Origin: Phytoseiulus persimilis | Lineage: Eukaryota > Arthropoda > Arachnida > Mesostigmata > Phytoseiidae | DNA: 64,000 nt | Assembly (NCBI GenBank): GCA_037576195.1 | Contig: CM075101.1 | Span: 10,044,001-10,108,000, forward strand | Reading direction: 5' to 3' | Shown: piece after piece, positions 10,879 to 45,809 of the stretch | Layout: the number at the start of each line of letters is the position of its first letter | Position numbering within the stretch: the first letter of the stretch is position 1 | The notes under the pieces: model-generated | Databases searched by the model: none | What the model saw: only the letters and a program-made list of their open reading frames with translations | What the model was told of the DNA's origin: nothing | Position numbers and translations under genes: made by a program

Positions 10879-12955
<2,077 letters not shown>

Positions 12956-21737: not shown

Positions 21738-22363
21738 AGAAGTTTGGTCAGATTGAGCTCGTGATCACCCCTCCAGAGTTGGAAAGTAATGATGAGAATG
21801 GCCCCGGAATCACCCCTCCGGACTTGGAAAATAATGGTCAGATTGGTCCCGGAATCACCCCTCCAGAGTTGGAAAGTGATGCTCAGATTGGTCTCGGAAC
21901 CCCCCCCCCTCCCAGACTCTGAAAGTAATGATGAGAATGGTCTCGGAATCAGCCCTTCGGACTTGGAAAATAATGGTCAGATTGGTCTCGGAATAACCCC
22001 CCAGAGATGGAAAGTAATGGTCAGATTGGTCTCGGAATCAACCCCCAGACTTTGAAAGTAATGATCAGATTGGTCCCGGAATCACCCCTCCAGAGTTGGG
22101 AAGTAATGGTCAGATTGGTCTCGGGATCACCCCCCCAGACTTTGAAAGTAATGGTGGGAATGGTCCCGGAATCACCCCTCCAGACTTGGAAGAGTATGTT
22201 CAGATTGGTCTCGGAATCACCCCTCCCATACCCAGAGAAGTATTGTCAGATTGGTCTCGGAATCAGCCCTCCCAGACTCAGAGAAGTATTGTCAGATTGG
22301 TCTCGGAATCACCCCCCATACTCAGGAAAGTATCCTCAGATCGGTCCCGGATTATACATAGTG
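21738..22363 (+). repeat. 45-bp satellite, array C (about 13 units)
   Basis: Tandem units of about 45 bp share the phrase ATCACCCCTCCAGAGTTGGA and a CAGATTGGTCTCGGAATC linker. These are the same family as the two larger arrays near 30 and 42 kb, but more divergent, with gaps and C-run slippage (for example at about 21,901). No (TA)n border is evident at the left. The right border (about 22,355) reads into a TATA-rich sequence. Confidence 0.85.
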
Positions 22364-22969
22364 AGGATGATTTTCATGGGTCGTATATATGTAGGTTGGA
22401 GATGGAACGTGCACGAGTGCATGTGCCGGTCCCACGACAATATTTCCCAGATCGTGGCAATGTAACGGATGGACAGCCGGCTGCGGGTCGGCGATCACGG
22501 TGAGCCTGGTCTGGAGAGGGGATGAGGGCCCTTCGCTGTGCTAGTGGAGGGACCAAGCGATACTGAGAAATTCTTCTTTTTGTCGGGACCAGCGTTCCGA
22601 ATTCATTCGAGCGAGTCGCCAAGAGTTTCCTGTATCGCAGACTCGGTTCGGAACACGGAACTGTTCCTCGAAGCACGTAGATCCGGCCCGTGCTGGAACC
22701 AACCACATATCAAAGATCACCACTCGCTCCCGAATCCAGATTGATTTCAAGTACAAGAGGAATGATATTGATCCAGGGAAAAAGCTGCGAACTCTCATGG
22801 GGAACAAGAGGATCAACCATCGAAGGAGCCCGGCTCAATCTGTTCATAAGAACGCCGAATCGCAAATTGGGGAAGCGAGGACCCATCACCTGGGTTTGGC
22901 TCCAACGCGGACGTCCCCTCCCACTGTTCTCGACCTTAGTGGGGTACATTCGGCCTCGTTCGCGGAATA

Positions 22970-24036
22970 CAGGGTGGTCATCGTGAGTCGGGAATTTTCT
23001 TACTCTCTCTTCTTTTGCTCATAAATCGGTGGAAAATTTTCCGATTCTGGAAATTTTTGTTCGCGGTCGATAGCTGGAAGGATGGTGCATCTGATCTCCC
23101 TCGATTCTTGGATCGGTAGAAAATGAGTTTCGTCGGCTCGAAGATTGCCTTTTTCCCGCAAGTTTTCTCAAAAAAACAGTCGACAAACTTCTGAAGTCGA
23201 CCGATCGAATTTGGAAGTGCCAAGGTCGACGCAGGATAAGATGCTGCTCAAACGGCCTGGCAACTCTAGATTCCTAGCTCAGGATCTGTGAGATGGACGC
23301 AAGATCGTTTCAACCTTGAGCTCAAGATCGACATCCTGACAAGATCGCGTCCTCTTTGCAGTTTGGCCCGCAAATCCTCAGGTGAGCCGAATTCGGAAAA
23401 TTTTCCGATGGGAAAAATTTCCTAGATTGGTCCAGACTACCTGACGAAGAAGTTGTCGGGTCGATCCGACAACTTTGTTTCCCCCCCAATTCCCGCTTTC
23501 TCAATTGTTTGAAAAAGTTGTCGGATGGACCCGTAAACTCCTTTGACAGGTAGTTTGGATCATTCTCAGAACTTTTTGCCATCGGAAAATTTTCCGGAGT
23601 CGACTTCCCCGAGAAGTTAAGGGCCAAAATGCAAAGAGGACGCGATCTTGTCAGGAGGTCGCTCTTGAGATCAAGGTTGAAACGATCTTTCGTCCTTCTC
23701 ACAGATACTGAGCTAGAAATCTGGAGTTGCCGGGCAGCATCCTAATGTGCGTCGACCTTGGCAGTTCCGAATTCGATCGGTCGACTTGAGAAGATTCTCG
23801 ACTAATTTTTTGAGAAAAGTTGAACAACAAAGAAAGGCAATCTTTGAGCCGATTCGCGAGACACATTTTCCTACCGATTGAAGCGAATCAACAACAAAGA
23901 AGAAAGAGAACAAAAAGAGGCGCCATCCTTCCAGCTATCGAACGCAAAAGGAAATTGCAGAAACGGATAATTTCTCATCGTTATATGAGCAAAAGAAGAG
24001 AGACTAAAAAAATCCCGACTTATGATGACCACCCTG
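22970..24036. mobile_element. TA-target foldback DNA transposon, copy 1 (1,067 bp)
   Basis: Both ends begin CAGGGTGGTCATC on opposite strands. The arms stay complementary for many tens of bases (the GCTCATA and TCTCTCTTCTTTTG blocks occur in both). TA precedes the left end (22,968-22,969); the right flank reads CA, which I take as a mutated TA. Interior palindromes surround short GA-rich segments. There is no transposase frame, so it is non-autonomous. TA duplication and 5'-CAGGG ends point to a Tc1/mariner-type mobiliser. It is a relative of 38,502-39,304. Confidence 0.8.
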
Positions 24037-24258
24037 CATACCGATGAGGCGATGGGGGAAAGTTTGAGTCCGAAATCTCCAAGTCATCATTCGGGACGCC
24101 GTGATGAGGCCAACGCGTTTGGAACCAGATGCTGCTGAACCCTGGTGCTACCCACGTAATTTGACCCGATGAGGCATAATTTTTTTGTACCTTGCCACCT
24201 CGTTATTCGAAACGTTCGAAGTTCAGAGCTCTGAGAAGCTCATAGATTGGATCGCCAG

Positions 24259-25268
24259 TTAGGACGGGGCTGTTCGCTTCGCAGGTCTTGTCCGCGGTGT
24301 GAGCGATGATCTGTGGCGTTCCTCTCTACGAGCTTCAGCTTGTGACCGATGCTTCGGTGGAGTGTGTGTTGGGGTTCTCAGGTACCCTGCCATTTCGGCT
24401 CCAACCAGCCGCTCCCGGTGCCCAGTACGGATGTCACGCTCCCCGCTGAACAAACAGAGATGAGCTTCTTGTCCCCTGTTGCTCGCTCGAGGGCCTCCCA
24501 ACCTAAGCGATGAGAGTCTCGGTGTCGAAGCCGGGACCTCTCAGAGTCTCGAATGCGAACGGCCTGAAATCATACCCGCTCGACAGCGCGTTATACTTGT
24601 TTATTTCCGCCCTCGCCACGGCGGACCCCTCCACGCTGTCGTGACCGAAATACAGCCGAGCAAGCGCCACGTCATCTCTTGGAGAGAGGTGACGTCCTCC
24701 GATCCAGGTGCAAGCAATTCACACTTCGCTGGTTTCAGATCATACCCGCTGTTTTCATGTGAATCGAGAACGCACCGGACTTCTCGGACTATAGTCTCGA
24801 TGGGTCCACCGGGAATTCCGTTGTCCAGAAACTTGCACGCATTCAAGGGCGCCTCGATGGAGTCGACAAGGTCCCGAATTTCAAGACTGAACCGTGCCGG
24901 TCCGAGAGTACCCCCTTGCTGAATGCCAGTTGATCCGGAGTGACCATAAAATACAGACAACAGGAGACTAGGGTTCGCTTACGACTGCTGGACGAGGTGG
25001 GACGGGTCGGGCCCGCCATCGCGCACGACTCGCAGAAGGTGATCTGTACGAATACAGCTGGAAGCATTTCTGAAATACAGCTTCGGGAATACGGCACGAA
25101 GAGGACGAGAGACCACAGCTGCCTGAGTTGCATGGATCGCCGCTTCTGGTCCCCCCTTTCTTCTGAAACCCAGTTGATGAGGACCAAGATCTTCACAATC
25201 TGGTCCTTAATTTCGCGACATGCAAGTTTGGCCGCGATCCTGCGAGAAGTGGACGAGCAGGAATGCAC
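24259..25268 (-). mobile_element. Decayed non-LTR-type reverse transcriptase (LINE/R2-like)
   Basis: Minus-strand translations carry recognisable reverse transcriptase blocks in order: AAKLACREIKDQIV, then RTDHLLRVVRDGG, then GIQQGGTLGPARFSL, then DNGIPGGPIETIVREV, and last SGYDLKPAKCELLAPGSEDV. The block order and the QQG-LGP and LxPxKCEL motifs fit RVT_1 polymerases of non-LTR elements. The expected catalytic FLDDG box reads FLDNG. The coding sequence is interrupted in several places and lies in more than one frame, so it is a fossil. The upstream part would lie above 25,268, where the duplicated block begins. Confidence 0.72.
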
Positions 25269-25270
25269 AG

Positions 25271-26036
25271 CGGCTGGCAAATCGGGTTTCTGTGGAGCGT
25301 TGACTAGTCAAGCGATCTGCTCCGAGAACCGGATGGAGCCTACTCCCGCCGCCGATCCCTGACGCATTCCAATGTGGAGATAGGACCAGACGGGATGAAA
25401 TATTGAAGAGAAGTCATGCCAGTGTGCTTCCGGCCATCGTTCTTCAATGAAGAACGATTCGAACTGATTGTGTGCAAGTTGAGTTTTCGGCCATTCTGAA
25501 TTCTCTTTCGGGCTCACCAACATGACTACACTCACGTTTTCTGAATGCGGTTCCTCACAAGCTGCGGCTTTCTCCATCTGCCACAGGATTCGCTGCAACG
25601 ATATCCTTCCCCACCGACAAACTGAATGGTTTGGTGAATGGCACCTCACCGATGGGCTGGGCGGAACTTCGTTGACCTCGAACTTCTGCCTGACCGCTCT
25701 CCCCAACTGCTCCATAGTGGGCGCGATCACATCTCTAAGACTGTGCTCACGCCTCGAAAGCATTCTTCCATCCTTGTGGAGTTTCCGCATGGATTGAGCT
25801 TCCTATTTCAATCATACCTGGTTGCTAGTCTCCATCCCTCGGAACTGCGCTTTGACAAGTTCTCCGTTTCGTTGGTGTGTGACACACCGTACATATCCAC
25901 CGAATCTGTTGGCACTACAGCTGTCACACAATCCGCATTCATTTCACCCCGTCCACGACTCATAACAGGTATAAACAAAACCACGTTCTGTATTTCATGA
26001 ATCGCTCCTCCCTGGCGGTCCAATCAGGAATGATTC
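25271..26036. repeat. Module 1 of the duplication, copy A (unidentified)
   Basis: Paired with 35,456-36,187. It holds a minus-strand open frame at 25,308-25,790 (160 codons) with phrases such as MLSRREHSLRDVIAPTMEQ and SSIFHPVWSYLHIGMRQG. The matching stretch in copy B has lost part of it through a short deletion. It directly follows the reverse transcriptase relic and may be the upstream part of the same element family, but I recognise no domain. Confidence 0.5.
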
Positions 26037-26770
26037 TTTGTCAGGTTCCAAGTCTCTCCCTCGTGGGGATCCTGGTAGAGGATAATCCGGCGCGAACAGT
26101 TTGGCGCGGGCAATTTGACGCGGACGACTAGGCGCGAACGTTCAAGATACCGGACAACGCCAGTCCACCAAATCCCGAAAGGGGCCATCGGGGAGGGATC
26201 CAAATATAGAACAGAGCTTCCAACAGGCTTAGCTTTCGCGTGCGCCAAAGATCAAACTCGTGACAGAGGAGTTTTTTGCGAGATTGAGTCCAGGTTTTTC
26301 GCCCCTGTGCTACACAGAGCATTATTTAGAGACGAATCGAACATGTCCATTTCGCTTCAACTCGTCGGGCAGAAGCTCTCAGCATGTGCCGCAGAGTTTC
26401 GCGAACTGATTGGTTTCTCATAAGGCGATGTAGCTGAGCTCTGATCAACCCTCGAAAACCCCAGATAAGATATTTTACTTTTGACTCATATCCTCGCGTG
26501 GGCGGTCACCGAGAGTTCCCCGGGTCTCAGAAACAGGATTCCGAGAAGATCATCATGAAAGGTTTGATCCGTATTTCCAAAATCCTCAAGACAGGACGTA
26601 ATTCAAATTTTTGTTTGATTGCTATAGATAACGAAGCGTCGGATGAAGGTGGTGGAAGAAAGACACGTTTCTCACGAATTTGGACCATCAATGAGGAATT
26701 TACTCAGTTGACATAAACGGGCGATTGTTACTACCTCCGATTGACTCTTGTGGCGGCCACTGGTGGAGTG

Positions 26771-27247
26771 TCAGTTCATTTTGGACAAGTCAAGTGGCTT
26801 ATCTCGCGAACTATAGTCTAGCGGTTTATCTCTCGTGCAAAGGTCTAGTGGCTTAGGACAGGTGCATTCTTTTTTCTTTCTCGCTTCTTCCTCGTCATAC
26901 TGCTTTCGCCTGAACTCCGCCTGCTCTTGAGTCACGGACTTTTTGTCCGCCCCCCCTCTCAACGTCAACGTGATGACGGGAGCGGTGCCTCCCCTGGCAT
27001 CGGGCATCGACGCTGGGTGGCCATATGGGCAAAGAACCGCATGGGCGCGGTCGTGCGGAGCGGCGGAATCCTGGCGGATTCTGCCTCCACATAACACGGG
27101 CAGTCCGTTCGCGTGTTGACTTTGGGCCGCATGAGCGTATTCGTTCGGAGCCGAAACTTGACAAGATATACCATACTCAGAGGATAAACGTTCGCTGTTC
27201 GCGTCAGTGCAAGAGTAGTCCTCCGGGAAATAGAGATGGATGTGCAT
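26771..27247 (-). CDS. Unknown 158-aa protein with C-terminal PLDLS repeats, copy A
   Basis: ATG-initiated frame opening MHIHLYFPEDYSC. The middle has a Cys/His-containing stretch (LPVLCGGRIRQD, AVLCPYGHPASM), followed by a highly charged, probably helical segment (TQEQAEFRRKQYDEEEARKK). The end is three tandem 9-residue repeats, KPLDLCTRD, KPLDYSSRD and KPLDLSKMN, then the stop. PxDLS is the known docking motif for the corepressor CtBP, so a transcription-related role is possible; that is inference. The frame is preserved in copy B at 36,638-37,108, and over the shared 122 codons I count 7 synonymous against 4 amino-acid differences. I recognise no family. It could be a single-exon gene, the last exon of a larger gene, or a passenger of a mobile element. 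Confidence 0.5.
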   Translation of the reverse strand: MHIHLYFPEDYSCTDANSERLSSEYGISCQVSAPNEYAHAAQSQHANGLPVLCGGRIRQDSAAPHDRAHAVLCPYGHPASMPDARGGTAPVITLTLRGGADKKSVTQEQAEFRRKQYDEEEARKKKECTCPKPLDLCTRDKPLDYSSRDKPLDLSKMN

Positions 27248-27737
27248 CGTTGATTGCAGCGACTGATCAAGAATTTAGGAATCTTTGTTATCCGGAGTGA
27301 TTGACGCGTCAATTTATAGCTGAGTGGGTGCTCGATATCTTTTCCTCCCCTCGGCTGCAGCAGATCGTGGAACACAAATGTGAGCAGGATGATGGGTCAA
27401 ATTTCACGGAGGATGTAGAACCCAACCCGAGAAATACCACTCAATAGCTTGACCCCGGGGAGGCTTAACAAGGATCGGGAAATGAGAACGCTCCTGTATG
27501 CTCGAGGATAACGAGGTCGCAACAAGATTAGAAAGCCGGACCGATGTGCGGGTCGTCGAGTTCCAATATGCCTCGCCTTACACCCGAAACGGAGTGCGAA
27601 CCCTTATACTCATACTTATTTCGAATTTGTCGTCCGGATGAGTATTTGTCTCACGGCCTCTGGAGGGAGTAACATGCATTTCTGTCAAGTACACTGCGCG
27701 TCAGTTTATAGAGCATCGTAGGAGATCGGATCCAGAC

Positions 27738-27950
27738 TAGGGTTTCCAAAAGCCCGCATTTCCAAGACCGCAAGCTAGCGGTCTGAAAGTTCATCGGGTG
27801 ACAGCATTTTAAAGCCCGCAGATGGAGACCGCGGGCTCAATGGAGGCCGGCTCCGGAATGTTCCGCGGGTTTCAGCCCGCGGTCCTGACGCAACACATGA
27901 GGCCGCCCGCGGGCTTGCGGTCCTGAGAACGCGGGATCTTGTCAGCCCTA
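27738..27950. mobile_element. hAT-type MITE, copy A (213 bp, uninterrupted)
   Basis: The ends are inverted repeats of about 43 bp starting TAGGG (left TAGGGTTTCCAAAAGCCCGC, right in reverse complement TAGGGCTGACAAGATCCCGC), sharing further in the block GACCGCAAGC. An 8-bp direct repeat ATCCAGAC flanks it at 27,730-27,737 and 27,951-27,958. The 8-bp duplication and YARNG termini are hAT hallmarks. The interior is GC-rich and self-complementary, with no coding capacity. Confidence 0.88.
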
Positions 27951-27959
27951 ATCCAGACT

Positions 27960-29420
27960 CAAGTTCGATACGTGACTGTAAATGCCTGCAAGATGGTCGC
28001 TCCAGTCCTTTTGCTGGGAAAAACTTGGATTTACGAATAATGAAGGAACTCACACCCTCCTTGAGAATTTTTCCCTCGATTTGACCAGACCAGATCTAGC
28101 GGGCGCAACTTCTTCTTAGGGAAAGGAAAGGGAAAGGGTTCAGCAATGATAAACTTCTGTAATAACCGCGTGCATCTCATTGAAGATGAATGCCGGAGAG
28201 TTTTCTTGATAATTTCGTGTACGGCTCAAAAACCTCATCAAGTCGCAGGCAGAGAGAGATGTCTAACCGGATTCCCCTCCCCCATCGCTGATAATGAGAC
28301 GCGAAATGCTCACAGTAGAATATTGGAGGATGTGGTTAAGGGTCAGAATCAGGTGTATGGATCAGGCAGATACTATTTCCAACAGAATAACAAGTCGCTC
28401 CATGTTCCAAGAACACCAACTTATGCCCTCTGACTGCCACCTCGACCAAGATGTCCACTCGATTTTGAGTCAAGGTTCGTTAGGACCTCATCCGAAGAGA
28501 GAAGCCTGGTGACGTTCAAGAAGCAGTTAGTACGGTGTAGTCTGTTTGGCTACCGCAGCTCTGTTTTGGGCGACTTGAGGCTACAAAAGCACGCCGACAC
28601 AGGTAGCGATCTCGAATTCGCAGCGGAGTCGGGGGAACGACGCGGCGGCGAACCGCGCGTGGATTCAATGCTTCCACCATGTTGGACTTCACAGAAGAGT
28701 AATGGAACTGCGTCATGCTTTCCTTGAGTGCTGTCCTTTCCCCCAGGCTTCAAGATGCTGTTGAAGAATTTGATGCAACCTTCGAAGACCGACGCAGCGG
28801 GCTCTTATTTTCTGAATTTCCAGGGACTCATCCCTACAACTCGGTTCTGTGAGAATATTATCGAAAGCAGCGCGTCGCAATCGCGGGAGTCCATAGCGCT
28901 TTTCGAGTACGGCTGCCGCCAAGATGTGGGACTTCTCCAAGCAGAAGAGGGACCACGCTCGGGTTCGAGGGTTCGGACTTCAATAGCTAAGGAGCTCCCC
29001 GACCTATCATGTTGAGCTAGGCACGTGCCCCTGTTTGCTTTAAGCCTTCCTTCTCTCAACCTCCTCTCCGCCTGCCGCGGCTCCCCGCCTAGGCCCTATG
29101 CACTAGTCTGTTTGGCTCTCGCATTCGATCGAACGGGCTGGAAAAGCGCCCTTCTGGGCGACTTCTCTTTGCGGGAGCCTAACAGATCGTACCGTTATAA
29201 GCACTTGAACGCAGGATACGGGAGCGAGGGAAGCGGATGAAATGATGAGTCGCAAAGTTGTTGCAGCCCCGCTGGATAGACCTCAGGAAAAGCGGCTTTG
29301 GACAAACCCGTGAAGAGGGTCAACCTGACTTGGCCGCGAAAACAAGCTTCGAAATAGGAGCCCGCCGAAAAACGACAGCGCTGTCCCCGAAAACAGGATA
29401 GAGCTACCCATGGTAATGAT
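27960..29420. repeat. Shared non-coding block of the duplication, copy A
   Basis: Nearly identical to 39,842-41,300, with about one difference per 100 bases or fewer in the parts I compared. It contains short open frames only. Two partially similar stretches sharing AGTCTGTTTGGCT (about 28,536 and 29,105) suggest an old internal duplication. No family is recognised. Confidence 0.5.
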
Positions 29421-29425
29421 TTGTT

Positions 29426-29870
29426 TCACATGAGAGGATAGCGGAAAATGCTTAGTGAGGCAAGGATTACGCTTTCTAATGTCGTCGAACCTCCCTGTAA
29501 CTGAATGACGACGAAACTTCTCCTAGGCATACTCTCGATGAGATTGCGCACCAGATTAGCCCTGATAGCTTCCTTGAGCTGCGGGACGCCTTCGAATTGG
29601 CGACCAATCTTGTAAGCACTTCGCTCAATCATGCCCCAGAGGTTCTCGACGGGGTTCAAATCCGGACTGGCCGCCCGTCGTGGCAGTGGTATATTGATTT
29701 CTTTCTGTCGATGGTTTCTCTGGAAATCACTCTATCGTCATCGGCCGCTCCTTGCGTGACGCAGAACGAGTCGCTCTTGGGCTTCAGAGAGCTTCTTGTT
29801 CGTTCCGCCAACCCACTGCGTTGAGTGGGACGATCCGAAGTTGACAACATTGTCCACAACGCTCCTTGAA
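29426..29870 (-). pseudogene. Tc1/mariner transposase remnant, copy A
   Basis: The C-terminal part (29,426 to about 29,725) reads INIPLPRRAASPDLNPVENL, then a helix-rich tail and NLIESMPRRSFVVIQLQGGS. This is the classic end of Tc1 transposases around the third catalytic acidic residue. Just upstream, in another frame, KLSEAQERLVLRHARSGR resembles the N-terminal helix-turn-helix region. The central catalytic domain with the first two aspartates is missing, so this is an internally deleted copy. The same structure in copy B (41,305-41,749) shows that the deletion predates the large duplication. I could not place its terminal inverted repeats. Confidence 0.8.
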
Positions 29871-30337
29871 GCATGGGGGACACCGACCGACCTGGAGGAG
29901 GCTCGAAAACTATGTCCTGGAATCGCCTCCTTGAGACTGGAAGGGAAATCATGACTGGTTCGCAATTCACCTCACCGAGTGCAACACAGCAAATACTCAC
30001 GTTCCCACGCGAAACAAGCGGTAGTATCTAATCCTACCATTCCAGACTTTTTTCCTCACATCTGCCGGACAAGTCACCCTTGCCTGTGGATCATGTTTGT
30101 TCAGCCGATGGTCATCGAGCACCATCACCTCTCAAATATTCGCCTCCCTTTACTCACTTTTTCATTCAAAAAGGAGGCAGCTTCATCCTGGAAATTGCTG
30201 CCCGCATCGTGGAAGTCTTGGCATTCGTTACTCTCGTCATTAGTGGTGGAGCGGCACCATCCTGGTTTTAATGACGAAGCACTTTTTGCCCGACCTCCGC
30301 TCGGAGGAAGCCGATTTGGACGAAAGGCTGATTGCTC

Positions 30338-33300
30338 ATATATATACATATATATATATACTAGCCGGCCTTCGGCCGACTACGCTGGCCGACCCGTCCC
30401 TTGCTTCGGGAGTCTAGTGCTGACAGACTTGGAGAAGTATGTTCAGACTGGTCCCGGTTTCACTCCTCCAAACTCGGAAAGTAATGGTCAGATTGGAGAC
30501 GGAATCACCCCTCCAGGTTTTGGAAAGTACGGTCAGATTCGTCTAGGAAGCACCCCTCCGGACTCAGAAAAGTATTGTCAGATTGGTCCTGGAATCACCC
30601 CCCCAGAGTAGGAGAGTAATGGCCAGATCGGTTTCGTAATCACCCCTCCAGAGTTGGAAGCTAATGGCCAGATTGGTCTCGGAATCACCCCTCCAGAGTT
30701 GGAAACTAATGGCCAGATTGGTCTCGGAATCACCCCTCCAGAGTTGGAAAGTAATGGCCAGATTGGTCTCGGAATCACACCTCCAGAGTTGGAAATTAAT
30801 GGCCAGATTGGTCTCGGAATCACCCCTCCAGAGCTGGAAAGTAATGGCCAGATTGGCCTCGGAATCACCCCTCCAGAGTTGGAAAGTAATGGTCAAATTG
30901 GCACCGGAATCACCCCTCCAGAGTTGGAAACTAATGGTCAAATTGGCACCGGAATCACCCCTCCAGAGTTGGAAACTAATGGTCGGATTGGTCTCGGCAT
31001 CACCCCTCCAGAGTTGGAAAGAAATGCTCAGATTGGTTCCGGAATCACCCCTCCAGGGTTGGAAAGTAATGCTCAGATTGGTCTCGGCATCACTGCTCCA
31101 TAGTTGGAAAGTAATGCTCAGATTGGCCCCGGAATCACCCCTCCAGGAATTGAAAGTAATGGTCAGATTGGTCTCGGCATCACCCCTCCAGAGTTGGAAA
31201 GTAATGCTCAGATCGGTCTCGGCATCACTGCTCCATAGTTGGAAAGTAATGCTCAGATTGACCCCGGAATCTCCCCTCCAGAGTTGGGGAGTAATGCTCA
31301 GATTGGTCTCGGCATCACCCCTCCAGAGTTGGAAAGTAATGCTCAGATTGGCCCCGGAATTTACCCCTCCAGAGTTGGAAAGTAATGCTCAGATTGGTCT
31401 CGGCATCCCCCCTCCAGGGTTGGGATGTAATGGTCAGATTGGTTCCGGAATCACCCCTCCAGGGTTGAAAAGTGATGGTCAGATCGGTTCCGGAATCACC
31501 CCTCCAGAGTTGGGGAGTAATGCTCAGATTGGTCGCGGAATCACCCCTCCAGAGTTGGGGAGTGATGCTCAGATTGGTCCCGGAATCACCCCTCCAGAGT
31601 TGGAAAGTAATGCTCAGATTGGTCTCGGCATCACTGCTCCATAGTTGGAAAGAAATGCTCAGATTGGCCCCGGAATTTACCCCTCCAGAGTTGGAAAGTA
31701 ATGCTCAGATTGGTCTCGGCATCCCCCCTCCAGAGTTGGAAAGAAATGCTCAGATTGGCCCCGGAATCACCCCTCCAGAGTTGGAAACTAATGGTCGGAT
31801 TGGTCTCAGAATCACCCCTCCAAACAAAGTTGGAAAGTAATGTCCAGATTGGTCTCGGAATCACCCCTCCAGAGTTGGGAAGAAATGCTCAGATTGACCC
31901 CGGAATCTCCCCTCCAGAGTTGGGGAGTAATGCTCAGATTGGTCCCGGCATCACCCCTCCAGAGTTGGAAAGAAATGCTCAGATTGGTTCCGGAATCACC
32001 CCTCCAGGGTTGGAAAGTAATGCTCAGATTGGTCTCGGCATCACTGCTCCATAGTTGGAAAGTAATGCTCAGATTGGTCTCGGCATCCCCCCTCCAGAGT
32101 TGGAAATGAATGCTCAGATTGGCCCCGGAATTACCCCTCCAGGGATGGAAAGTAATGGTCAGATTGGTCTCGGCATCACCCCTCCAGAGTTGGAAAGAAA
32201 TGCTCAGATTGGTTCCGGAATCACCCCTCCAGGGTTGGAAAGTAATGCTCAGATTGGTCTCGGCATCACTGCTCCATAGTTGGAAAGTAATGCTCAGATT
32301 GGCCCCGGAATCACCCCTCCAGGAATTGAAAGTAATGGTCAGATTGGTCTCGGCATCACCCCTCCAGAGTTGGAAAGTAATGCTCAGATCGGTCTCGGCA
32401 TCACTGCTCCATAGTTGGAAAGTAATGCTCAGATTGACCCCGGAATCTCCCCTCCAGAGTTGGGGAGTAATGCTCAGATTGGTCTCGGCATCACCCCTCC
32501 AGAGTTGGAAAGTAATGCTCAGATTGGCCCCGGAATTTACCCCTCCAGAGTTGGAAAGTAATGCTCAGATTGGTCTCGGCATCCCCCCTCCAGGGTTGGG
32601 ATGTAATGGTCAGATTGGTTCCGGAATCACCCCTCCAGGGTTGAAAAGTGATGGTCAGATCGGTTCCGGAATCACCCCTCCAGAGTTGGGGAGTAATGCT
32701 CAGATTGGTCGCGGAATCACCCCTCCAGAGTTGGGGAGTGATGCTCAGATTGGTCCCGGAATCACCCCTCCAGAGTTGGAAAGTAATGCTCAGATTGGTC
32801 TCGGCATCACTGCTCCATAGTTGGAAAGTAATGCTCAGATTGGCCCCGGAATTTACCCCTCCAGAGTTGGAAAGTAATGCTCAGATTGGTCTCGGCATCC
32901 CCCCTCCAGAGTTGGGGAGTGATGCTCAGATTGGTCCCGGAATCTCCCCTCCAGAGTTGGGAAGTCATGCTCAGATTGGTCTCGGCATCCCCCCTCCAGG
33001 GTTGGAAAGAAATGCTCAGATTGGCCCCGGAATTTACCCCTCCAGAGTTGGAAAGTAATGCTCAGATTGGTCTCGGCGTCCCCCCTCCGGAGTTGGAAAG
33101 AAATGCTCAGATTGGCCCCGGAATTTACCCCTCCAGAGTTGGAAAGTAATGCTCAGATTGGTCTCGGCGTCCCCCCTCCAGGGTTGGGAAGTAATGGTCA
33201 GATTGGTTCCGGAATTTACCCCTCCAGAGTTGGGAAGTCATGCTCAGATTGGTCTCGGCATCCCCCCTCCAGGGTTGGAAAGAAATGCTCAGATTGGCCC

Positions 33301-34141
33301 CGGAATTTACCCCTCCAGAGTTGGAAAGTAATGCTCAGATTGGTCTCGGCGTCCCCCCTCCGGAGTTGGAAAGAAATGCTCAGATTGGCCCCGGAATTTA
33401 CCCCTCCAGAGTTGGAAAGTAATGCTCAGATTGGTCTCGGCGTCCCCCCTCCAGGGTTGGGAAGTAATGGTCAGATTGGTTCCGGAATTTACCCCTCCAG
33501 AGTTGGGAAGTCATGCTCAGATTGGTCTCGGCATCCCCCCTCCAGGGTTGGAAAGAAATGCTCAGATTGGCCCCGGAATTTACCCCTCCAGAGTTGGGAA
33601 GTCATGCTCAGATTGGTCTCGGCATCCCCCCTCCAGGGTTGGAAAGAAATGCTCAGATTGGCCCCGGAATTTACCCCTCCAGAGTTGGAAAGTAATGCTC
33701 AGATCGGTCTCGGAATCACCCCTCCAGAGTTGGAAAGAAATGCTCAGATTGGCCCCGGAATCACCCCTCCAGAGTTGGAAAGTAATGCTCAGATTGGTCT
33801 CGGCATCACCCCTCCAGGGTTGGGAAGTAATGGTCAGATTGGTTCCGGAATCACCCCTCCAGGGTTGGAAAGTAATGGTCAGATTGGTCCCGGAATCACC
33901 CCTCCAGGGTTGGGAAGTAATGGTCAGATTGGTTCCGGAATCACCCCTCCACGTTTTGAAAAGTATGGTCAGATTGGTTCTAGAATCACCCCTCCACGTT
34001 TTGAAAAGTATAGTCAGACTCGTACCGGAATCACCTCTCCAGACTCGAGAGAGTATGTTCAGATTGGTCCCAGAATCACCTTCATGTCGTTCAGAAAAAG
34101 TGCGGACAAACTGACAGACTAAGCCGATTATATATAGTAAG
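30338..34141 (+). mobile_element. mini-me/Helentron-like frame enclosing satellite, copy A
   Basis: A (TA)n run (30,338-30,360) is followed by a CTAGCCGGCC-TTCG-GGCCGAC hairpin-forming core ending near 30,415. The satellite comes next. The right end reads GCGGACAAACTGACAGACTA, then ATTATATATAG (to 34,141). The order (TA)n, core, body, (GACA/ACAA)-rich run, TA-rich end matches mini-me elements, now grouped by many authors with DINE/Helentron-type rolling-circle elements. An RTE-type LINE 3' end is the alternative. Confidence 0.55.
30421..34080 (+). repeat. 45-bp satellite, array A (about 80 units)
   Basis: Units of 45 bp (some 46 bp) differ at a few diagnostic sites: GGCCAG or GCTCAG or GGTCAG before ATTGG, and GAATC or CATC or GTC before the C-run. 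Because 45 is a multiple of three, reading frames run through the array; one plus frame reads QIGLGITPPELESNG per unit and another reads as LQSWKVMARLVSESP. Units with an extra T (GGAATTTACCCCTCC), mostly after 31,350, shift the frame. I regard the frames as a by-product of the period, not as a gene. Confidence 0.93.
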
Positions 34142-34596
34142 GATGGACTCCGGATGTCCTACTCCCCGTACGCGAAGTTTCGTCTCAACATTCGGCCGCA
34201 GAGACTTGTTTTTGTGCCACTTAGTCCAGAGGTCGGCAGAGTTTTCCCTCAGCGGATCCCCTCGAAGCCACTCCTCCGCCTAGAGAACACTTTGTTGTTG
34301 CCTTCCGTGAGTTATACAATGGTATTTTCCGAATCGTCGTTCATTTCCCTCAAAGATCTGAATCAAACTCCCCTGTCCGACTCCCGACGTAGCACAAGAA
34401 ATTCTGGACGGACGAAGCTTCTTCGCGATCACATCCTGTCAGAATAAGAGCTGAACTCACGATTGTAAGTGGAAGAAATAGATAGATTTCTCTCTGGTTT
34501 CCTTCAGCTACATTTTCGCGAGGCGCCCGATCTGGTAATTTTCATTGAAAGCACTCGCAGCGAGCTTTTTAGGAAGTTTCGCTCGAGACTGTAGGT

Positions 34597-35455
34597 GAAA
34601 CCGTTTTTAGGATCTGGCCTTCTCCGGTTCCTCAGTCCTCGACTATTTTAACGAGACCGGGAAGCAGTAGGGCGCCGGAATCCTCGCTTTGGCCACTTTT
34701 CACAATCTTTAGCATACCATGGACTTCCCGAAGACTTTTGGAGAAAGGGGGAATTCTGGCGAGACCCGTAGGGCGGCCTGACGTGCCTGATGGCGGATCC
34801 ATATACCAGAGGGACTTTTTTTTCCCGGAAAAATGGGGAATACCATGCGAGCTCTGCGATGCTTTGAAATTCAGAGGCGAAGCTTAGGGCTGTGTTGTCT
34901 TGTCGACGAGGTGGAATCGCCGATTCTGGGAACTCCGCTCAAATTCATCGTTGATGAGTATTGATTCAAATGAACTCGCACGAGCGTTTAGAATGACTCG
35001 AGCTCTCTTGGATAGTTCCGGCATGGACGAGCTCAGTTTGGAAGACTTCACACGAGCCCGAATACCGCGGGCGCGATAAAGCTCCACCCAGCAGAGAGCG
35101 CGCGATCTCGGTCGAGCTTATGTGCGCGGCAATGTTGCTCCTTTGGCATGAGTCGCGATCCCTCTCTCAGAATGGAGAAGCGTTCGGAAACCAGGTTCTT
35201 GACACGCTCGTGAATATAATATCTGAAATCATTTGTTCACCAGTTTCTTGTGTTTCGAGATGTTAATTGAGATCGATTCTGTGCCCGAGTCTTCTCGGAA
35301 TTCACAATTTTCCCAGTCAAATAGTTGGTCACAGCTGCATACATACAAATGATATTGCGAGCATCTTTCGCTACAAAGTGTGCATACACAGGTTTCGTCC
35401 GGCTCGTGTCTCGTCTTTTTGTTGCATATGGCACAAGCGCACATCGTTGCACAAG
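34597..35455. other. Spacer between the two large duplicates
   Basis: 859 bp of sequence that matches neither duplicate. It has no recognised gene or transposon ends. Mildly CT/GA-rich patches occur near 34,600-34,830. Confidence 0.5.
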
Positions 35456-36187
35456 CGGCTGGCGAATCGGGTTTCTGCGGAGCGTTGGCTAGTCAAGCGA
35501 TCTGCTCCGAGAACCGGACGAAGCCTACTCCCGCCGCCGAACCCAGACGCATTCCAATGTGGAGATACCACCAGACGGGATGAAATATTGAAAGAAGAAC
35601 GATTCGAACTGATTGTGTGCAAGTTGAGTGTTCGGCCATTCTGAATTCTCTTTCGGGTTCCTCCACCAACATGACTACACTCACTTTTTCTGAATACGGT
35701 TCCTCACAAGTTACGGCTTTCTTTATCTGCTACAGGATTCGCTGAAACGATATCCTTCCCCACCGACAAACTGAATGGTTTGCACCTCACCGATGGGCTG
35801 GGCGGAACTTCGTTGACCTCGAACTTCTGCCTGACCGCTTTCCCACACTGCTCCATAGTGGGCGCGATCACATCTCTAAGACTGTGCTCACGCCTCGAAA
35901 GCATTCTTCCATCCTTGTGGTGCTTCGCATGGATTGAGCTTCCTATTTCAATCATACTTGGTTGCTAGTCTTCATCCCTCGGAACTGCGCTTTGACAAGT
36001 TTTCCGTTTCGTTGGTATGTGACACACCGTACGTATCCACCGGATCTGTTGGTACTACAGCTGTTACACAATTTACATGCATTTTACCCCGTCCATGATT
36101 CATAACAGGTATAAACAAAACTACGTTCTGTATTTCATGATTCGCTCCTTCCTGGCGTTGCAAGCAGGAATGATTCTTTACCAGGAA
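35456..36187. repeat. Module 1 of the duplication, copy B (unidentified)
   Basis: Matches 25,271-26,036 at lower identity than the central modules, with indels including one that removes a stretch present in copy A near 25,405-25,445. From about 36,188 to 36,345 the sequence is unrelated to copy A. Confidence 0.5.
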
Positions 36188-36637
36188 GTTACTGCAGCAC
36201 ACTGTCCCGCGTCAATTAAGCCGGGCGCGTAGAAACCATGCGCAGCATCGCGGTACATAATAGAGTAATATTCACGATCGAGTAGCATGCACAATGCGGA
36301 GCAGCAACCGGGAGATTATCGTGTAATATCTAATTAATATTCTATTGTCGATTCATATCTCCGCGTGAGAGGATAGCGAGAATTTCCCGGGTCTCAGATA
36401 CAGGATTGCGAGAAGATCTTCATGGAAGGTTTGATTTGGATTTCCAAAATACTCAAGACAGGACGTAATACGAATTTTGGACTGATTGCTATAGATAACG
36501 AAGCGTCGGATGAAGGTGATGGAAGAAAGACACGTTTCTCACGAATTTAGACCATCAATTTGGGATTTACTCAATGGACACAAACGGGCGATTGTCACTA
36601 CCTCCGATTGACTCTTGTGGCGGCCACTGGTGGAGTG

Positions 36638-37108
36638 TCAGTTCATTTTGGACAAGTCAAGTGGCTTATCTCGCGAACTATAGTCTTTCGGTTCATCTCT
36701 CGTGCAAAGGTTTTGTGGCTTAGGACTTTCTTTCTTCTTTCTCGCTTCTTCCTCGTCATACTGCTTTCGCCTGAACTCCGCCTGCTCTTGAGTCACGGAC
36801 TTTTTGTCCGCCCCACCTCTCAACGTCAACGTGATGACGGGAGCGCTGCCTCCCCTGACATCGGGCATCGACGCTGGGTGGCCATATGGGCAGAGAACTG
36901 CATGGGCGCGGTCGTGCGGAGCGGCGGGATCCTGGCGGATTCTACCTCCACATAACACGGGCAGCCCGTTCGCGTGTTGACTTTGGGCCGCATGAGCGTA
37001 CTCGTTCGGAGCCGAAACTTGACAAGATATACCATACTCAGAGGATGGACGTTCGCTGTTCGCGTCAGTGCAGGAGTAGTCCTCCGGGAAATAGAGATGG
37101 ATGTGCAT
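36638..37108 (-). CDS. Unknown 156-aa protein with C-terminal PLDLS, copy B
   Basis: Paralogue of 26,771-27,247 with an intact frame from the same ATG to the same stop. The first two C-terminal 9-mers have drifted (PKPQNLCTRD and EPKDYSSRD), while the last, KPLDLSKMN, is unchanged. Other replacements are Leu to Pro, Ser to Pro, Ala to Val and Thr to Ser. A net difference of 6 bases near the C-terminal repeats keeps the frame. The Cys/His stretch and charged helix are otherwise the same. Function is unknown; the CtBP-type motif is the only clue. Confidence 0.48.
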   Translation of the reverse strand: MHIHLYFPEDYSCTDANSERPSSEYGISCQVSAPNEYAHAAQSQHANGLPVLCGGRIRQDPAAPHDRAHAVLCPYGHPASMPDVRGGSAPVITLTLRGGADKKSVTQEQAEFRRKQYDEEEARKKKESPKPQNLCTRDEPKDYSSRDKPLDLSKMN

Positions 37109-37676
37109 CGTTGATTTCAGCGACTGATCAAGAATTTAGGAATCTTTGTTATCCGGAGTGATTGACGCGTCAATTTATAGCTGAGTGGGTGCTCGATATA
37201 TTTTCCTCCCCTCGGCTGCAGCAGATCGTGGAACACAAATGTGAGCAGGATGATGGTACAAATTTCACGGAGAACGTGGAACCCAACCCGAGAAATACCA
37301 CTCAATAGCTTGACCCCGGGGACGCTCACACAAGGATCGGAAAATGAGAACGCTCCTGTATGCTAGAGGATAACGAGGTCGCAACAAGATTAGAAAGCCG
37401 GACCGATGTGCGGGTCGTCGACTTCCAATATGCCTCGCCTTACACTCGAAACGGAGTGCGAACCCTTATACTCATACTTAGAGTACGGATTTGTCGTCCG
37501 GATGAGTATTTGTCTCACGGCCTCCGGAGAGAGGAACATACATTTCTGTCAAGTACACTGCGCGTCAGTTTATAGAGCATCGTAGGATATCGGATCCAGA
37601 CTAGGGTTTCCAAAAGCCCGCATTTCCAAGACCGCAAGCTAGCGGTCTGAAAGTTCATCGGGTGACAGCATTTTAA

Positions 37677-39699
37677 GGGGGGTGTAACGAGGAAAATCGA
37701 AAAAAAATATGCATTTTCCGTTCATGGCATGGAGAGATAGAGGACGCATCCCTCTACCATCCACCACAAACCGGGCGTCGATATCGGTCGTAGTTTTTGA
37801 GATGTCCGTTTTTTTCGAAATATTTCCGATGTTGGTCAATGACGAACCCCAAGGTCCAAACGACCCAACCTCTGAGATCGAATCTATCAGATTGGATATC
37901 CCTTTTCTCAAACTGGAAACACAAGAATCTCTCGCCGAGAGCATCCCAACGTTTGAAATCCCCGCGGAAACAAACTCTCGGAATGCATTCATTACGTAGA
38001 GATTGTCGCTCTCAATTTTTCGTTCCGTCCGTGTCCACTGTGTCCCCGATTTCTCCTCGACAGGTTCTTCGATTTTGATGCGGTTTGTTTCATCTGGTAG
38101 CTAATGCATGTGGCTCGCGAATGAACTAGCATCATTGAGATTAGAGCGCCTCTTGGTGGGGAAGCACTCTGATGGCGAGGAAAGTAACAGTTTCTGGCTC
38201 TCTTGAACTCGGATTCTGAAATGTTTCCCCGGCTCCGATTCCAATACCGCTAGTTCAGCCTAAGAAGGACTCTTTTGGCTATATTTGAGAGAAAAAAATA
38301 AGTCTCTAGCTTGTTCTGGAGGCTCGGAATCATGTCCAGACCACGACACTCTGGGAACCCTCGGTTCGATGGTGGTTGACTTTGGAGCGCGATATCTCGG
38401 AATCGCTCCACTTTGTCCCTGATTCCTCCTCGCCAGGTGCATCGATTTCGATTCTGTTTTTTTTTATTTGTAGCCGAGGGATCCCGCAAGCGAATGAACT
38501 ACAGGGTGGTCATCGTAAGTCGGGAACTTTCTTACCCTCTCTTCTTTTGCTCATAGCTCGGTGAAAAATGGTCGGATTCTGGAAAATCTTTTTGCGTTCG
38601 ATAGCTCGAATTTCGTGAATCGGTAAAAAATTGAACTGTTTAAATCGGCCTAAAAATTGCAATTTTTTTTTTCAACTTTTCTCAAAGAACTGATCGACAA
38701 ACTTCTAAAGTCAACCGATCGAATCCGAAAGTGCTTAAGTCGAGGCAGGATAGGATGCTGCTCAAACGCCCGGCAACTCCAGATTTCTAGCTCAGGATCT
38801 GTGAGAAGGACGAAAGATCGTTTCAACCTCGACGTCAGGATCGACCACCTGACAAGATCGCGTACTCTTTGCATTAAGGCCCGTAGCTCCTCAGGGATGC
38901 CGAATTCGAAAATTTTTCCGATGGCAAAAAGTTCTTAGATTGGTCCAGACTACCCGACTATGGAGTTGCCGGGTCGATCTGACAACTTTTTTTTTCCCCC
39001 GAAAATCCCGCCGAAAAAAAAGTTGTCAGATCGACCCGGCAACTCCATAGCATCCTATCCTGCCTCGACTTAAGCACTTTCGAATTCGATCGGTTGACTT
39101 TAGAAGTTTGTCGATCAGTTTTTGGAGAAAAGTTGAAAAAAAAAATTGCAATTTTTAGGCCGATTTAAAAAATTCGACGAGAAAAAGACGCGCCGTCCTT
39201 CCAGCTATCGAACGCAAAAAGATTTTCCAGAATCCGGCCATTTTCCGAGTTATGAGCAAAAGAAGAGAGAGTAAGAAAGTTCCCGACTTACGATGACCAC
39301 CCTGTAGAACGGTTTTATTCGGAGCACACGTTCCCGATTGAGTCGTCGAGAACGGCAAGCGACGATTTTCATTTCTTTGAATTCGCATTCAGAAATTCTT
39401 CCTGTGCTTGGATCTCCATAATCCTAGTTCATTCGCAAGATCCCTTCGTAATCTACATGCGAAAAAAAGAATTAGGACCCTAGCTCATGCTGGTGACTGG
39501 TGAGGAGTAATCAGGGACGAAGGGCAAAATCGATAGGTTCCTCGTGCGAAGAGCGACAACGAAGTTGCGCCGCCATCTTTTTTTCGTGAATAGCTTGAAC
39601 CTTCCTCTACTCTGAACTCATTCCATATAATCTCTGGCTGCTCTCAAAGCAAAGATGTAGCCCGAGGGAGAAGACTCACATTTTCTCGTAACACCCCCC
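37677..39699. mobile_element. TTAA-target DNA transposon, non-autonomous (2,023 bp)
   Basis: Left end GGGGGGTGTAACGAGGAAAA and right end, in reverse complement, GGGGGGTGTTACGAGAAAAT form inverted repeats of about 20 bp. The flanks are TTAA on the left and TCAA on the right (one mutated base), and copy A shows a single TTAA at the empty site. TTAA duplication is typical of the piggyBac superfamily, though the G-rich ends are not the usual ones. There is no transposase frame; it is largely non-coding and carries a nested foldback element at 38,502-39,304. Confidence 0.75.
38502..39304. mobile_element. TA-target foldback DNA transposon, copy 2 (803 bp)
   Basis: Ends CAGGGTGGTCATCGTAAGTC on both strands, with perfect TA on each side (38,500-38,501 and 39,305-39,306). 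The long arms fold back almost throughout, around a centre near 38,990-39,015. It is shorter and cleaner than copy 1 at 22,970, so it is probably the younger insertion. No coding capacity. Confidence 0.85.
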
Positions 39700-39841
39700 T
39701 CAAAGCCCGCAGATGGAGACCGGCTCGGGAATGTTCCGCGGGTTCAGCCCGCGGTCCTGACGCAGCACATGAGGCCGCCCGCGGGCTTGCGGTCCTGAGA
39801 ATGCGGGATCTTGTCAGCCCTAATCCAGACTCAAGTTCGAT

Positions 39842-41300
39842 ACGTGACTCAAAATGCCTGCAAGATGGTCGCTCCAGTCCTTTTGCTGGGGAAAACTTGG
39901 ATTTACGAATAATGAAGGAACTCACACCCTCCTTGAGAATTTTTCCCTCGATTTGACCAGACCAGATCTAGCGGGCGCGAGTTCTTCTTAGGGAAAGGAA
40001 AGGGAAAGGGTTCAGCAATGATAAACTTCTGTAATAACCGCGTGCATCTCATTGAAGATGAATGCCGGAGAGTTTTCTTGATAATTTCTTGTACGGCTCA
40101 AAAACCTCATCAAGTCGCAGGCAGAGAGAGATGTCTAACCGGATTCCCCTCCCCCATCGCTGATAATGAGACGCGAAATGCTCACAGTAGAATATTGGAG
40201 GATGTGGTTAAGGGTCAGAATCAGGTGTATGGATCAGGCAGATACTATTTCCAACAGAATAACAAGTCGCTCCATGTTCCAAGAACACCAACTTATGCCC
40301 TCTGACTGCCACCTCGACCAAGATGTCCACTCGATTTTGAGTCAAGGTTCGTTAGGACCTCATCCGAAGAGAGAAGCCTGGTGACGTTCAAGAAGCAGTT
40401 AGTACGGTGTAGTCTGTTTGGCTACCGCAGCTCTGTTTTGGGCGACTTGAGGCTACAAAAGCACGCCGACACAGGGAGCGATCTCGAATTCGCAGCGGAG
40501 TCGGGGGAACGACGCGGCGGCGAACCGCGCGTGGATTCAATGCTTCCACCATGTTGGACTTCACAGAAGAGTAATCGAACTGCGTCATGCTTTCCTTGAG
40601 TGCTGTCCTTTCCCCCGGGCTTCAAGATGCTGTTGAAGAATTTGATGCAACCTTCGAAGACCGACGCAGCGGGCTCTTATTTTCTGAATTTCCAGGGACT
40701 CATCCCTACAACTCGGTTCTGTGAGAATATTATCGAAAGCAGCGCGTCGCAATCGCGGGAGTCGATAGCGCTTTTCGAGTACGGCTGCCGCCAAGATGTG
40801 GGACTTCTCCAAGCAGAAGAGGGACCACGCTCGGGTTCGAGGGTTCGGACTTCAATAGCTAAGGAGCTCCCCGACCTATCATGTTGAGCTAGGCACGTGC
40901 CCCTGTTTACTTTAAGCCTTCCTTCTCTTAACCTCCTCTCCGCCTGCCGTGGCTCCCCGCCTAGGCCCTATGCACTAGTCTGTTTGGCTCTCGCATTCGA
41001 TCGAACGGGCTGGAAAAGCGCCCTTCTGGGCGACTTGTCTTTGCGGGAGCCAAACAGATCGTACCGTTATAAGCACTTGAACGAAGGATACGGGAGCGAG
41101 GGAAGCGGATGAAATGATGAGTCGCAAAGTTGTTGCAGCCCCGCTGGATAGACCTCAGGAAAAGCGGCTTTGGACAAACCCGTGAAGAGGGTCAACCTGA
41201 CTTGGCCGCGAAAACATCTTCGCCGCTTCGAAATAGGAGCCCGCCGAAAAACGACAGCGCTGTCCCCGAAAACAGGATAGAGCTACCCATGGGAATGATT
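39842..41300. repeat. Shared non-coding block of the duplication, copy B
   Basis: Counterpart of 27,960-29,420 with very few differences. It contains no recognised gene. Confidence 0.5.
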
Positions 41301-41304
41301 TGTT

Positions 41305-41749
41305 TCACATGAGAGGATAGCGGAAAATGCTTAGTGAGGCAAGGATTACGCTTTCTAATGTCGTCGAACCTCCCTGTAACTGAATGACGACGAAACTTCT
41401 CCTAGGCATACTCTCGATGAGATTGCGCACCAGATTAGCCCTGATAGCTTCCTTGAGCTGCGGGACGCCTTCGAATTGGCGACCAATCTTGTAAGCACTT
41501 CGCTCAATCATGCCCCAGAGGTTCTCGACGGGGTTCAAATCCGGACTGGCCGCCCGTCGTGGCAGTGGTATATTGATTTCTTTCTGTCGATGGTTTCTCT
41601 CGAAATCACTCTATCGTCATCGGCCGCTCCTTGCCTGACGCAGAACGAGTCGCTCTTGGGCTTCAGAGAGCTTCTTGTTCGTTTCGCCAACCCACTGCGT
41701 TGAGTGGGACGATCCGAAGTTGACAACATTGTCCACAACGCTCCTTGAA
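41305..41749 (-). pseudogene. Tc1/mariner transposase remnant, copy B
   Basis: Same composition as 29,426-29,870: a C-terminal block with NPVENLWG and an NLIESMPRR tail, preceded in another frame by the KLSEAQERLVLR segment, without the central catalytic domain. The two copies differ at only a handful of bases. Confidence 0.8.
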
Positions 41750-42299
41750 GCATGGGGGACACCGAACGACCTGGAGGAGGCTCGAAAACTATGTCCTGGA
41801 ATCGCCTCCTTGAGACTGGAAGGGAAATCATGACTGGTTCGCAATTCACCTCACCGAGTGCAACACAGCAAATACTCACGTTCCCACGCGAAACAAGCGG
41901 TAGTATCTAATCCTACCATTCCAGACTTTTTTCCTCACATCTGCCGGACAAGTCACCCTCGCCTGTGGATCATGTTTGTTCAGCCGATGGTCATCGAGCA
42001 CCATCACCTCTCAAATATTCGCCTCCCTTTACTCACTTTTTCATTCAAAAAGGAGGCAGCTTCATCCTGGAAATTGCTGCCCGCATCGTGGAAGTCTTGG
42101 CATTCGTTACTCTCGTCATTAGTGGTGGAGCGGCACCATCCTGGTTTTAATGACGAAGCACTTTTTGCCCGACCTCCGCTCGGAGGAAGCCGATTTGGAC
42201 GAAAGGCTGATTGCTCATATATATACATATATATATATACTAGCCGGCCTTCGGCCGACTACGCTGGCCGACCCGTCCCTTGCTTCGGGAGTCTACTGC

Positions 42300-45069: not shown

Positions 45070-45809
45070 AAACCTTGCGTGAGCGGAGAATCACGGGCGT
45101 GACGTTGCAACAGCATCCCACTGTTCTTTAGGGAACAGTCCAGTAAGGAAATAGATTTATCAATTATGGACTCCGGATGTTATACTCCCCGTACGCGAAG
45201 TTTCGTTTCAACATTCGGCCGCAGAGACTTGTTTTTGTGCCACTTAGTCCAGAGGTCGGCAGAGTTTTCCCTCAGCGGATCCCCTCGAAGCCACTCCTCC
45301 GCCTAGAGAACAATTTGTTGGTGCCTTCCGTGAGCCACGATGATATTTTCCGAATCGTCGTCCATTTCCCTCAAAGATCTGAATCAAACTCCCCTGCCCG
45401 TCTCCCGACGTAGCACAAGAATTGCTGAACGGACGAAGCTTCTTCGCGTTCACATCCTGTCAGAATAAGAGCTGAACTCACGATTGTGAGTGGAAGAAAT
45501 TGATAGATTTCTCTCTGGTTTCCTTCAGCTACATTTTCGCGAGGCACACGATCTGGTAATTTTCATTGAAAGCACTCGCAAAGAGCTTTTTAGGAAATTT
45601 CGCTCGAGACTGTAGGTATCCAGGAACACTGATCCTCCTGTCTTACCCTGCTAAGAGTTGTGGTTATAACCGAAACAAGACGAGACTGTCGCCAAGAAGT
45701 GAAGAGATCGAATACTGCTGGCCGACGGGCTGTCTCTGTCCACTTTGAGACTCAACTCCTAGAGTGAATGCGCTCGGCAGTCTGGGCTTGGATGGTTTAG
45801 TGGAGGTGC

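Follow-up and report, generated by a model that had tools for sequence, protein, structure and literature searches.

The 64,000-nucleotide stretch of Phytoseiulus persimilis DNA analyzed here (assembly GCA_037576195.1, contig CM075101.1, positions 10,044,001 to 10,108,000 of the forward strand; hereafter the window) carries a roughly 10-kb local duplication that holds two closely related minus-strand open reading frames (ORFs), A and B, on unique DNA amid transposon debris, each frame ending in a motif of the type bound by the corepressor CtBP (Table 1). Translation confirmed the first-pass annotation of two intact frames of 158 and 156 residues, with no internal stop in either copy, and the 6-nt difference in length proved to be the only indel within the frame, lying beyond codon 122 and leaving the frame in register. 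Altogether 19 base changes and this indel separate A from B without introducing a stop or a frameshift. Over codons 1-122 the two copies differ in 11 codons, seven of them synonymous and four changing the amino acid, which reproduces an earlier hand count; by single bases there are 8 silent and 4 replacement changes, since TTA/CCA counts as two. Of the base changes in the tail, beyond codon 122, one is silent and 6 alter the residue.

The tail of A consists of three 9-residue units (KPLDLCTRD-KPLDYSSRD-KPLDLSKMN), and the corresponding motifs of B read PQNLC, PKDYS and PLDLS, so that only the last is unchanged, exactly as initially described. The P-x-D-L-S sequence of CtBP partners is therefore present in both copies: RDKPLDLSKMN and the stop that follows are the same in A and B, and positions 26727-26799 differ at 1 of 73 bases between the copies. 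Such a motif is rare in comparable frames: among 174 frames of 100 residues or more in the window, only A and B hold PxDLS, and among 1188 simulated frames at least 120 residues long it turned up in 3, never within the last 12 residues.

Table 1. Features of the window (position 1 is its first base).
Feature	Positions	Strand	Remarks
ORF copy A	26771..27247	-	158 codons and stop
ORF copy B	36638..37108	-	156 codons and stop; protein 94% identical to A
PLDLS, motif 3 of A	26783..26797	-	residues 151-155 of 158; sole canonical PxDLS in A
PLDLS of B	36650..36664	-	residues 149-153 of 156; unchanged
Motif 1 of A, PLDLC (B: PQNLC)	26837..26851	-	non-canonical
Motif 2 of A, PLDYS (B: PKDYS)	26810..26824	-	non-canonical
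Charged segment	26867..26929	-	residues 107-127 of A; predicted helix, low to moderate confidence (AlphaFold2)
TATAAATTGACGCG upstream of A	27305..27318	-	
TATAAACTGACGCG, second upstream occurrence for A	27697..27710	-	
TATAAATTGACGCG upstream of B	37166..37179	-	
TATAAACTGACGCG, second upstream occurrence for B	37561..37574	-	
Block around ORF A	26470..27812	.	partner 36337-37676; 76 substitutions in 1337 aligned bases
Block around ORF B	36337..37676	.	partner of 26470-27812
Further duplicated block	25264..26045	.	partner 35448-36185; no third genome match
Further duplicated block	27840..32187	.	partner 39713-44069; transposon debris and part of a 45-bp minisatellite
Further duplicated block	34143-34596		partner 45166-45617
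Reverse-transcriptase fragment of retroposon	24601-24978		RVT_1, E 9.5e-4, below curated cut-off; surrounding repeat 24640-25261
Tc1-like transposase fragment	29429-29731		DDE_3, E 0.0025, below cut-off; dispersed matches; B counterpart 41308-41610
Coronin exons	10882-13000	-	WD40_4 match and authors' reading; frame 12350-12655 named by reading, outside domain scan
NMDA receptor 1 exons	47600-50700	-	Lig_chan, Lig_chan-Glu_bd and CaM_bdg_C0 matches and authors' reading

Selection on the frame was estimated from the nonsynonymous (Ka) and synonymous (Ks) divergence of A and B, by the Nei-Gojobori method on aligned codons. Ka/Ks was 0.34 over all aligned codons (Ks 0.087, Ka 0.029), 0.17 over codons 1-122 (Ks 0.096, Ka 0.016) and 1.49 over the codons after 122, the part with the motifs (Ks 0.052, Ka 0.077). 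Thus the earlier impression of a constrained frame holds for the first 122 codons but not for the remainder. When the 19 base changes were dealt out neutrally in simulation (transition weight 2), the silent excess of the whole frame had P 0.040 (between 0.019 and 0.094 as kappa went from 1 to 6), and a simulation that also allowed for picking the best prefix of at least 60 codons gave P 0.0024. Purifying constraint is supported but modest.

Codon usage was scored with a model built on 6692 codons from 26 of 30 fetched kinase loci (147 family matches listed), four loci having been dropped: L018, L028 and L041, on small contigs, and L032, which has a stop. By mean score, B and A ranked 4th and 5th among the 140 non-satellite frames that are at least 100 codons long, behind three frames that all lie at coronin (12350-12655, 10882-11508 and 11820-12362) and above two NMDA-receptor frames. 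In a null set of 128 frames, obtained from the 140 by leaving out A, B and the minus-strand frames of coronin and the NMDA receptor, none reached the score of A; of 3024 simulated frames, 0.2% reached that of A and 0.1% that of B. The synonymous-only bias was weak (ranks 23 for B and 32 for A of 141, under a 20-kinase-locus model), placing the signal mainly in the amino-acid make-up. Two of the measures used, Ka/Ks and mean codon usage, bear out the view that the frame looks coding; the ranking of local segments does not. Taken together, we consider the frame likely to be protein-coding.

On the other hand, A and B could be a frame that is open by chance and was copied when unique non-coding DNA underwent local duplication, its silent excess and motif being coincidental, an account that we judge somewhat unlikely. 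Frames of this length are expected at random and are uninformative (at 165 codons or above, a second-order Markov model gives 16.4 per 64 kb, versus 18 seen outside satellites). As a control, the ORF was ranked in a set of 42 frames, each at least 60 codons long and open in both copies of non-satellite blocks; its silent/replacement P, here 0.058, was the third lowest; two of the 41 others were lower (0.036 and 0.049), one of them overlapping the ORF on the other strand. The best local coding segments of B and A ranked 28th and 51st of 266, and no homologue was found in Pfam, PDB sequences or viral_contigs. Opposed to a chance frame are i) the mean codon score, which narrowly exceeds that of every one of the 128 null frames; ii) the P of 0.0024 after prefix correction; iii) the accumulation of 19 base changes and one indel without a stop or frameshift; and iv) the placing of PxDLS at the extreme C-terminal end.

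Base identity among the repeat units of the tail of A is 19/27 (unit 1 vs 2), 14/18 (1 vs 3) and 10/18 (2 vs 3), and Lys, Pro, Leu and Arg are kept across them by different codons (AAG/AAA, CCA/CCG, CTA/CTT and AGA/CGA), as expected of repeats held at the protein level. At the four residues that differ between A and B in units 1 and 2, A matches its other units and B does not; thus B probably holds the derived states, judging from the units themselves. It is safe to say that each copy has one intact motif; the ancestor may have been multivalent. A third RDKPLDLS elsewhere in the genome (C2:1169760, L015) lies inside a 17-codon frame between stops and was taken as chance.

The genome encodes the prospective partner: among its 6 matches to PF00389 is a CtBP gene (L046) with a long exon frame that aligns over 245 residues with chain 1hku_A, the C-terminal binding protein (E 6.4e-127), and the alignment takes in the well-conserved N-terminal region of CtBP. 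A second frame, on the small contig C12 (L052, 1501-1530), which we take by our own reading to be Su(H), carries the CtBP-type motif RKPLDMS. This frame also contains the 15-residue GADRKPLDMSAAHRS, letter-identical to a peptide printed for Metaseiulus occidentalis (PMC6777938; this and the other papers are cited from excerpts), a paper that prints RKPLDMS as a CtBP motif for the Su(H) of that species; M. occidentalis is a phytoseiid predatory mite according to the genome paper cited in the same source. The shared peptide makes a phytoseiid, or a close kin of one, the likely origin of the genome. In Drosophila transcription factors, repressive domains that contain PxDLS both enrich CtBP and require it, as excerpted from PMC9890238.

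The CtBP dock proposed in the first-pass annotation thus stands in part: the last PLDLS fits the motif, is unchanged between copies and has CtBP encoded in the genome to meet it, but in A the first two motifs depart from the canonical form, in B both have changed still more, and the tail as a whole has the Ka/Ks of 1.49 given above. Provided that the frame is coding, PLDLS probably serves as a CtBP dock, going by its sequence and placing. Alternatively, a real orphan protein may carry a PLDLS that is not so used, either because it never meets CtBP or because the motif is a relic of the 27-bp repeat. The state of motifs 1 and 2 would fit such a protein, as would the shortness of a five-residue motif; the identity of motif 3 in both copies, the CtBP gene and a start that by eye does not resemble a signal peptide speak for a dock, and we regard the unused motif as quite unlikely.

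Neither A nor B matched any Pfam family (up to E 10). Among PDB sequences a single match (E 1.9) was rejected and no homologue was found, and of 5 pattern matches in viral_contigs none was confirmed by tblastn, a single-protein query that detects close relatives only; these three collections, with no animal-genome collection among them, make up the scope of the homologue search. AlphaFold2, run on the two-sequence alignment, gave a mean predicted local distance difference test (pLDDT) score of 42, a low value that may also reflect so thin an alignment. The Cys/His section to which attention had been drawn contains no zinc-finger domain recognised by Pfam, and the model of the whole protein is of low confidence. 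Charge is balanced in A (21 Lys and Arg versus 22 Asp and Glu) and tryptophan is absent from both copies. With no Pfam domain, no tryptophan, balanced charge and such a pLDDT, the protein looks mostly disordered as modeled.

The copy number of the frame bears on a mobile origin. Searched with the protein (up to E 10), the 181-Mb, 127-contig genome returned two matches, a count that is a lower bound, and both lie in the window, so that the dispersed copies expected of a transposon-borne gene did not appear and nothing was found beyond A and B. The duplicated DNA block had 28 genome matches, namely the two copies and 26 short ones confined to parts of its first 93 bases. Therefore the repeat-embedded setting noted at first describes the surroundings, where degraded transposons flank the block, but not the frame, which is a patch of unique DNA with repeats around it; having two genome matches only, on otherwise unique DNA, it is unlikely to be the transposon-borne gene once suggested. 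Arrival on a mobile element or in an integrated virus, followed by confinement to the locus, is in our view very unlikely. It would agree with the transposon debris on both sides, both fragments being below curated cut-offs, and with the viral proteins E1A, EBNA3C and Meq, listed as PLDLS proteins in the excerpted text of PMC11209466; it is opposed by the lack of a third copy of the frame in the genome, of a confirmed viral_contigs match and of a Pfam match, and by the adjoining block 25264-26045, for which a third match is likewise lacking.

Divergence across the duplication is a mosaic: 6.5% (25264-26045), 5.7% (26470-27812), 1.1% (27840-30660) and 5.1% (34143-34596). Around the frame, substitutions number 21/565 upstream, 19/471 in the coding sequence, 8/100 in the near 3' flank and 28/201 in the far 3' flank; the 3' flank has thus diverged more than the frame, whereas the 5' flank has not. 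Since gene conversion can yield such steps, the level of divergence alone proves nothing. The 1.1% of 27840-30660 versus 39713-42540 stands beside 4-14% in neighboring parts, pointing to gene conversion or several events. The duplication begins 3 bases from the end (25261) of the retroposon-containing repeat. In copy A, positions 26046-26469, between duplicated blocks, have no partner in B; within them, 26210-26436 has one dispersed match listed.

Upstream of the frame, TATAAAYTGACGCG was found 4 times in the 181 Mb, two occurrences lying 5' of each ORF copy at spacings of 392 and 395 bases, and one form of it contains the palindrome TTGACGCGTCAA. The frame is open for 9 codons 5' of its ATG, and just 5' of it CCTAAATTCTTGATCAG resembles by eye a branch point and acceptor. 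Both features would suit one exon of a larger spliced gene whose protein starts or ends elsewhere, an arrangement that is compatible with a CtBP-binding product and that we consider unlikely. A segment scan showed no clear partner exon common to both copies: among same-strand segments present in both, transposase debris alone (9.6) outscored the frame (B 8.5, A 7.5). The minus-strand segments 36208-36288 and 37787-37846 of B, which score 8.3, lie in stretches without a partner in A.

Other features of the window include 45-bp minisatellite arrays (30424-34080, ~81 copies; 42355-44069, ~38; 21745-22351, ~13), which leave several frames free of stops and crowd the list of long ORFs, related foldback (inverted-repeat) stretches at 22963-24043 and 38499-39307, and a 167-bp tandem repeat of 2.2 copies at 45815-46178. 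The duplication has coronin and NMDA receptor 1, both read from the minus strand, as its neighboring genes. In the window, Rfam gave 0 matches at the gathering score, and ARAGORN with the bacterial code gave 0 transfer RNA genes.

Several lines of evidence, i.e., two intact copies, the silent excess in codons 1-122, a coding-like mean codon usage, an identical terminal PLDLS and the presence of CtBP in the genome, support our preferred interpretation, to which we assign a probability of roughly 0.45: that A and B are two tandem copies of a lineage-restricted mite gene for a small, mostly disordered CtBP-binding protein. A number of observations weigh against it: i) the inference of selection rests on 19 base changes in two copies with no outgroup, and the control set lends it only the third-lowest P; ii) the motif-bearing part is not constrained as a whole; iii) the best null frame in mean codon usage, at -0.009, nearly equals A at -0.008, the synonymous bias is weak and the local coding segments are unremarkable; iv) divergence of the duplication ranges from 1.1% to 13.9%, and some of the similarity may stem from gene conversion; v) no homologue was found in the three collections searched; vi) in ~770 bases downstream of either copy there is no AATAAA or ATTAAA, only AGTAAA; vii) a core promoter tried from TATAAA at 27318 and TCACT at 27300 was rejected, the spacing of 20 bases being too close for a standard initiator, which lies at about 30.

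In the mechanism that we propose for the lineage-restricted gene, it would make a protein of about 158 residues, mostly disordered, whose PLDLS, three residues from the C-terminus, would bind the host corepressor CtBP. The protein might then act as an adaptor linking CtBP to a second partner, as Hairless does, or else as a competitor drawing CtBP off PxDLS repressors, as E1A does; one of these two roles seems the most likely because no DNA-binding domain was recognised. Transcription, translation, nuclear location, CtBP binding and the adaptor or competitor role are all steps that we infer. A more specific version, which we hold to be speculative and on balance unlikely, would have a mite-specific regulator newly arisen de novo and with no DNA-binding domain of its own: a short motif captured CtBP, the tail grew as 9-residue repeats and, shortly after duplication, A (three PLD units) and B (one intact) began to diverge from a multivalent to a monovalent ligand.

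If expressed, this would be an orphan gene whose partner and contact motif are named in advance, making its function directly testable, and a young CtBP ligand in mites would, if real, offer a view of short motifs rewiring a conserved corepressor. The setting adds to this: CtBP is unusual in mesostigmatid mites, its C-terminal domain being replaced in the three sampled (PMC9907507), and Hairless is absent outside Pancrustacea (PMC6777938), both as given in excerpts of these papers. Excerpts of the literature on CtBP/PLDLS in Drosophila, viral PxDLS, phytoseiid genomes, chelicerate Hairless and orphan CtBP ligands, with few subscription papers covered, name no such mite gene. The frame is thus a plausible new regulator on the strength of its sequence, its expression and binding being proposals.

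Compared with known CtBP partners, the mite protein shares single traits with several. With Hairless, the Su(H) adaptor described in the consulted text as confined to Pancrustacea (PMC6777938), it has in common a C-terminal CtBP-type motif and the adaptor logic, but it is only 158 residues long and lacks tryptophan and, by eye, a Su(H)-binding domain (SBD). The chelicerate S-CAPs likewise carry a CtBP motif in the C-terminal half; in excerpts of the same paper, S-CAPs have an SBD and then a conserved tryptophan, the chelicerate ones add ELM2 and SANT domains, and M. occidentalis has an S-CAP gene of its own, whereas the mite protein has no tryptophan and no Pfam match, ELM2 and SANT included (up to E 10). 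Adenovirus E1A is small and mostly disordered and has PxDLS in its C-terminus; the mite gene differs in lying at a host locus with no confirmed viral_contigs match, and the two are likened by description rather than by comparison with an E1A sequence. E1A and endogenous proteins compete for CtBP (PMC5930299, from an excerpt). RAI2, with tandem ALDLS motifs and no folded domain, polymerises CtBP (PMC11187106, in the part available) and resembles the mite protein in its repeated PxDLS-like motifs and lack of a fold; however, its two motifs are identical and joined by a 21-residue linker (11 residues of which were removed in a shortened construct), whereas each mite copy has one canonical PxDLS rather than the two or more of such a polymeriser, its units being 4 residues apart and two of the three altered in B. 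Finally, Deadlock and Bootlegger of the Drosophila PIWI-interacting RNA pathway, compared by motif only, are arthropod proteins that also bind CtBP via short motifs, and Deadlock of D. erecta carries PLDLS itself (PMC12992792, as excerpted). The mite protein fits into none of the named families against which it was tested and would act, if at all, like the known PxDLS ligands.

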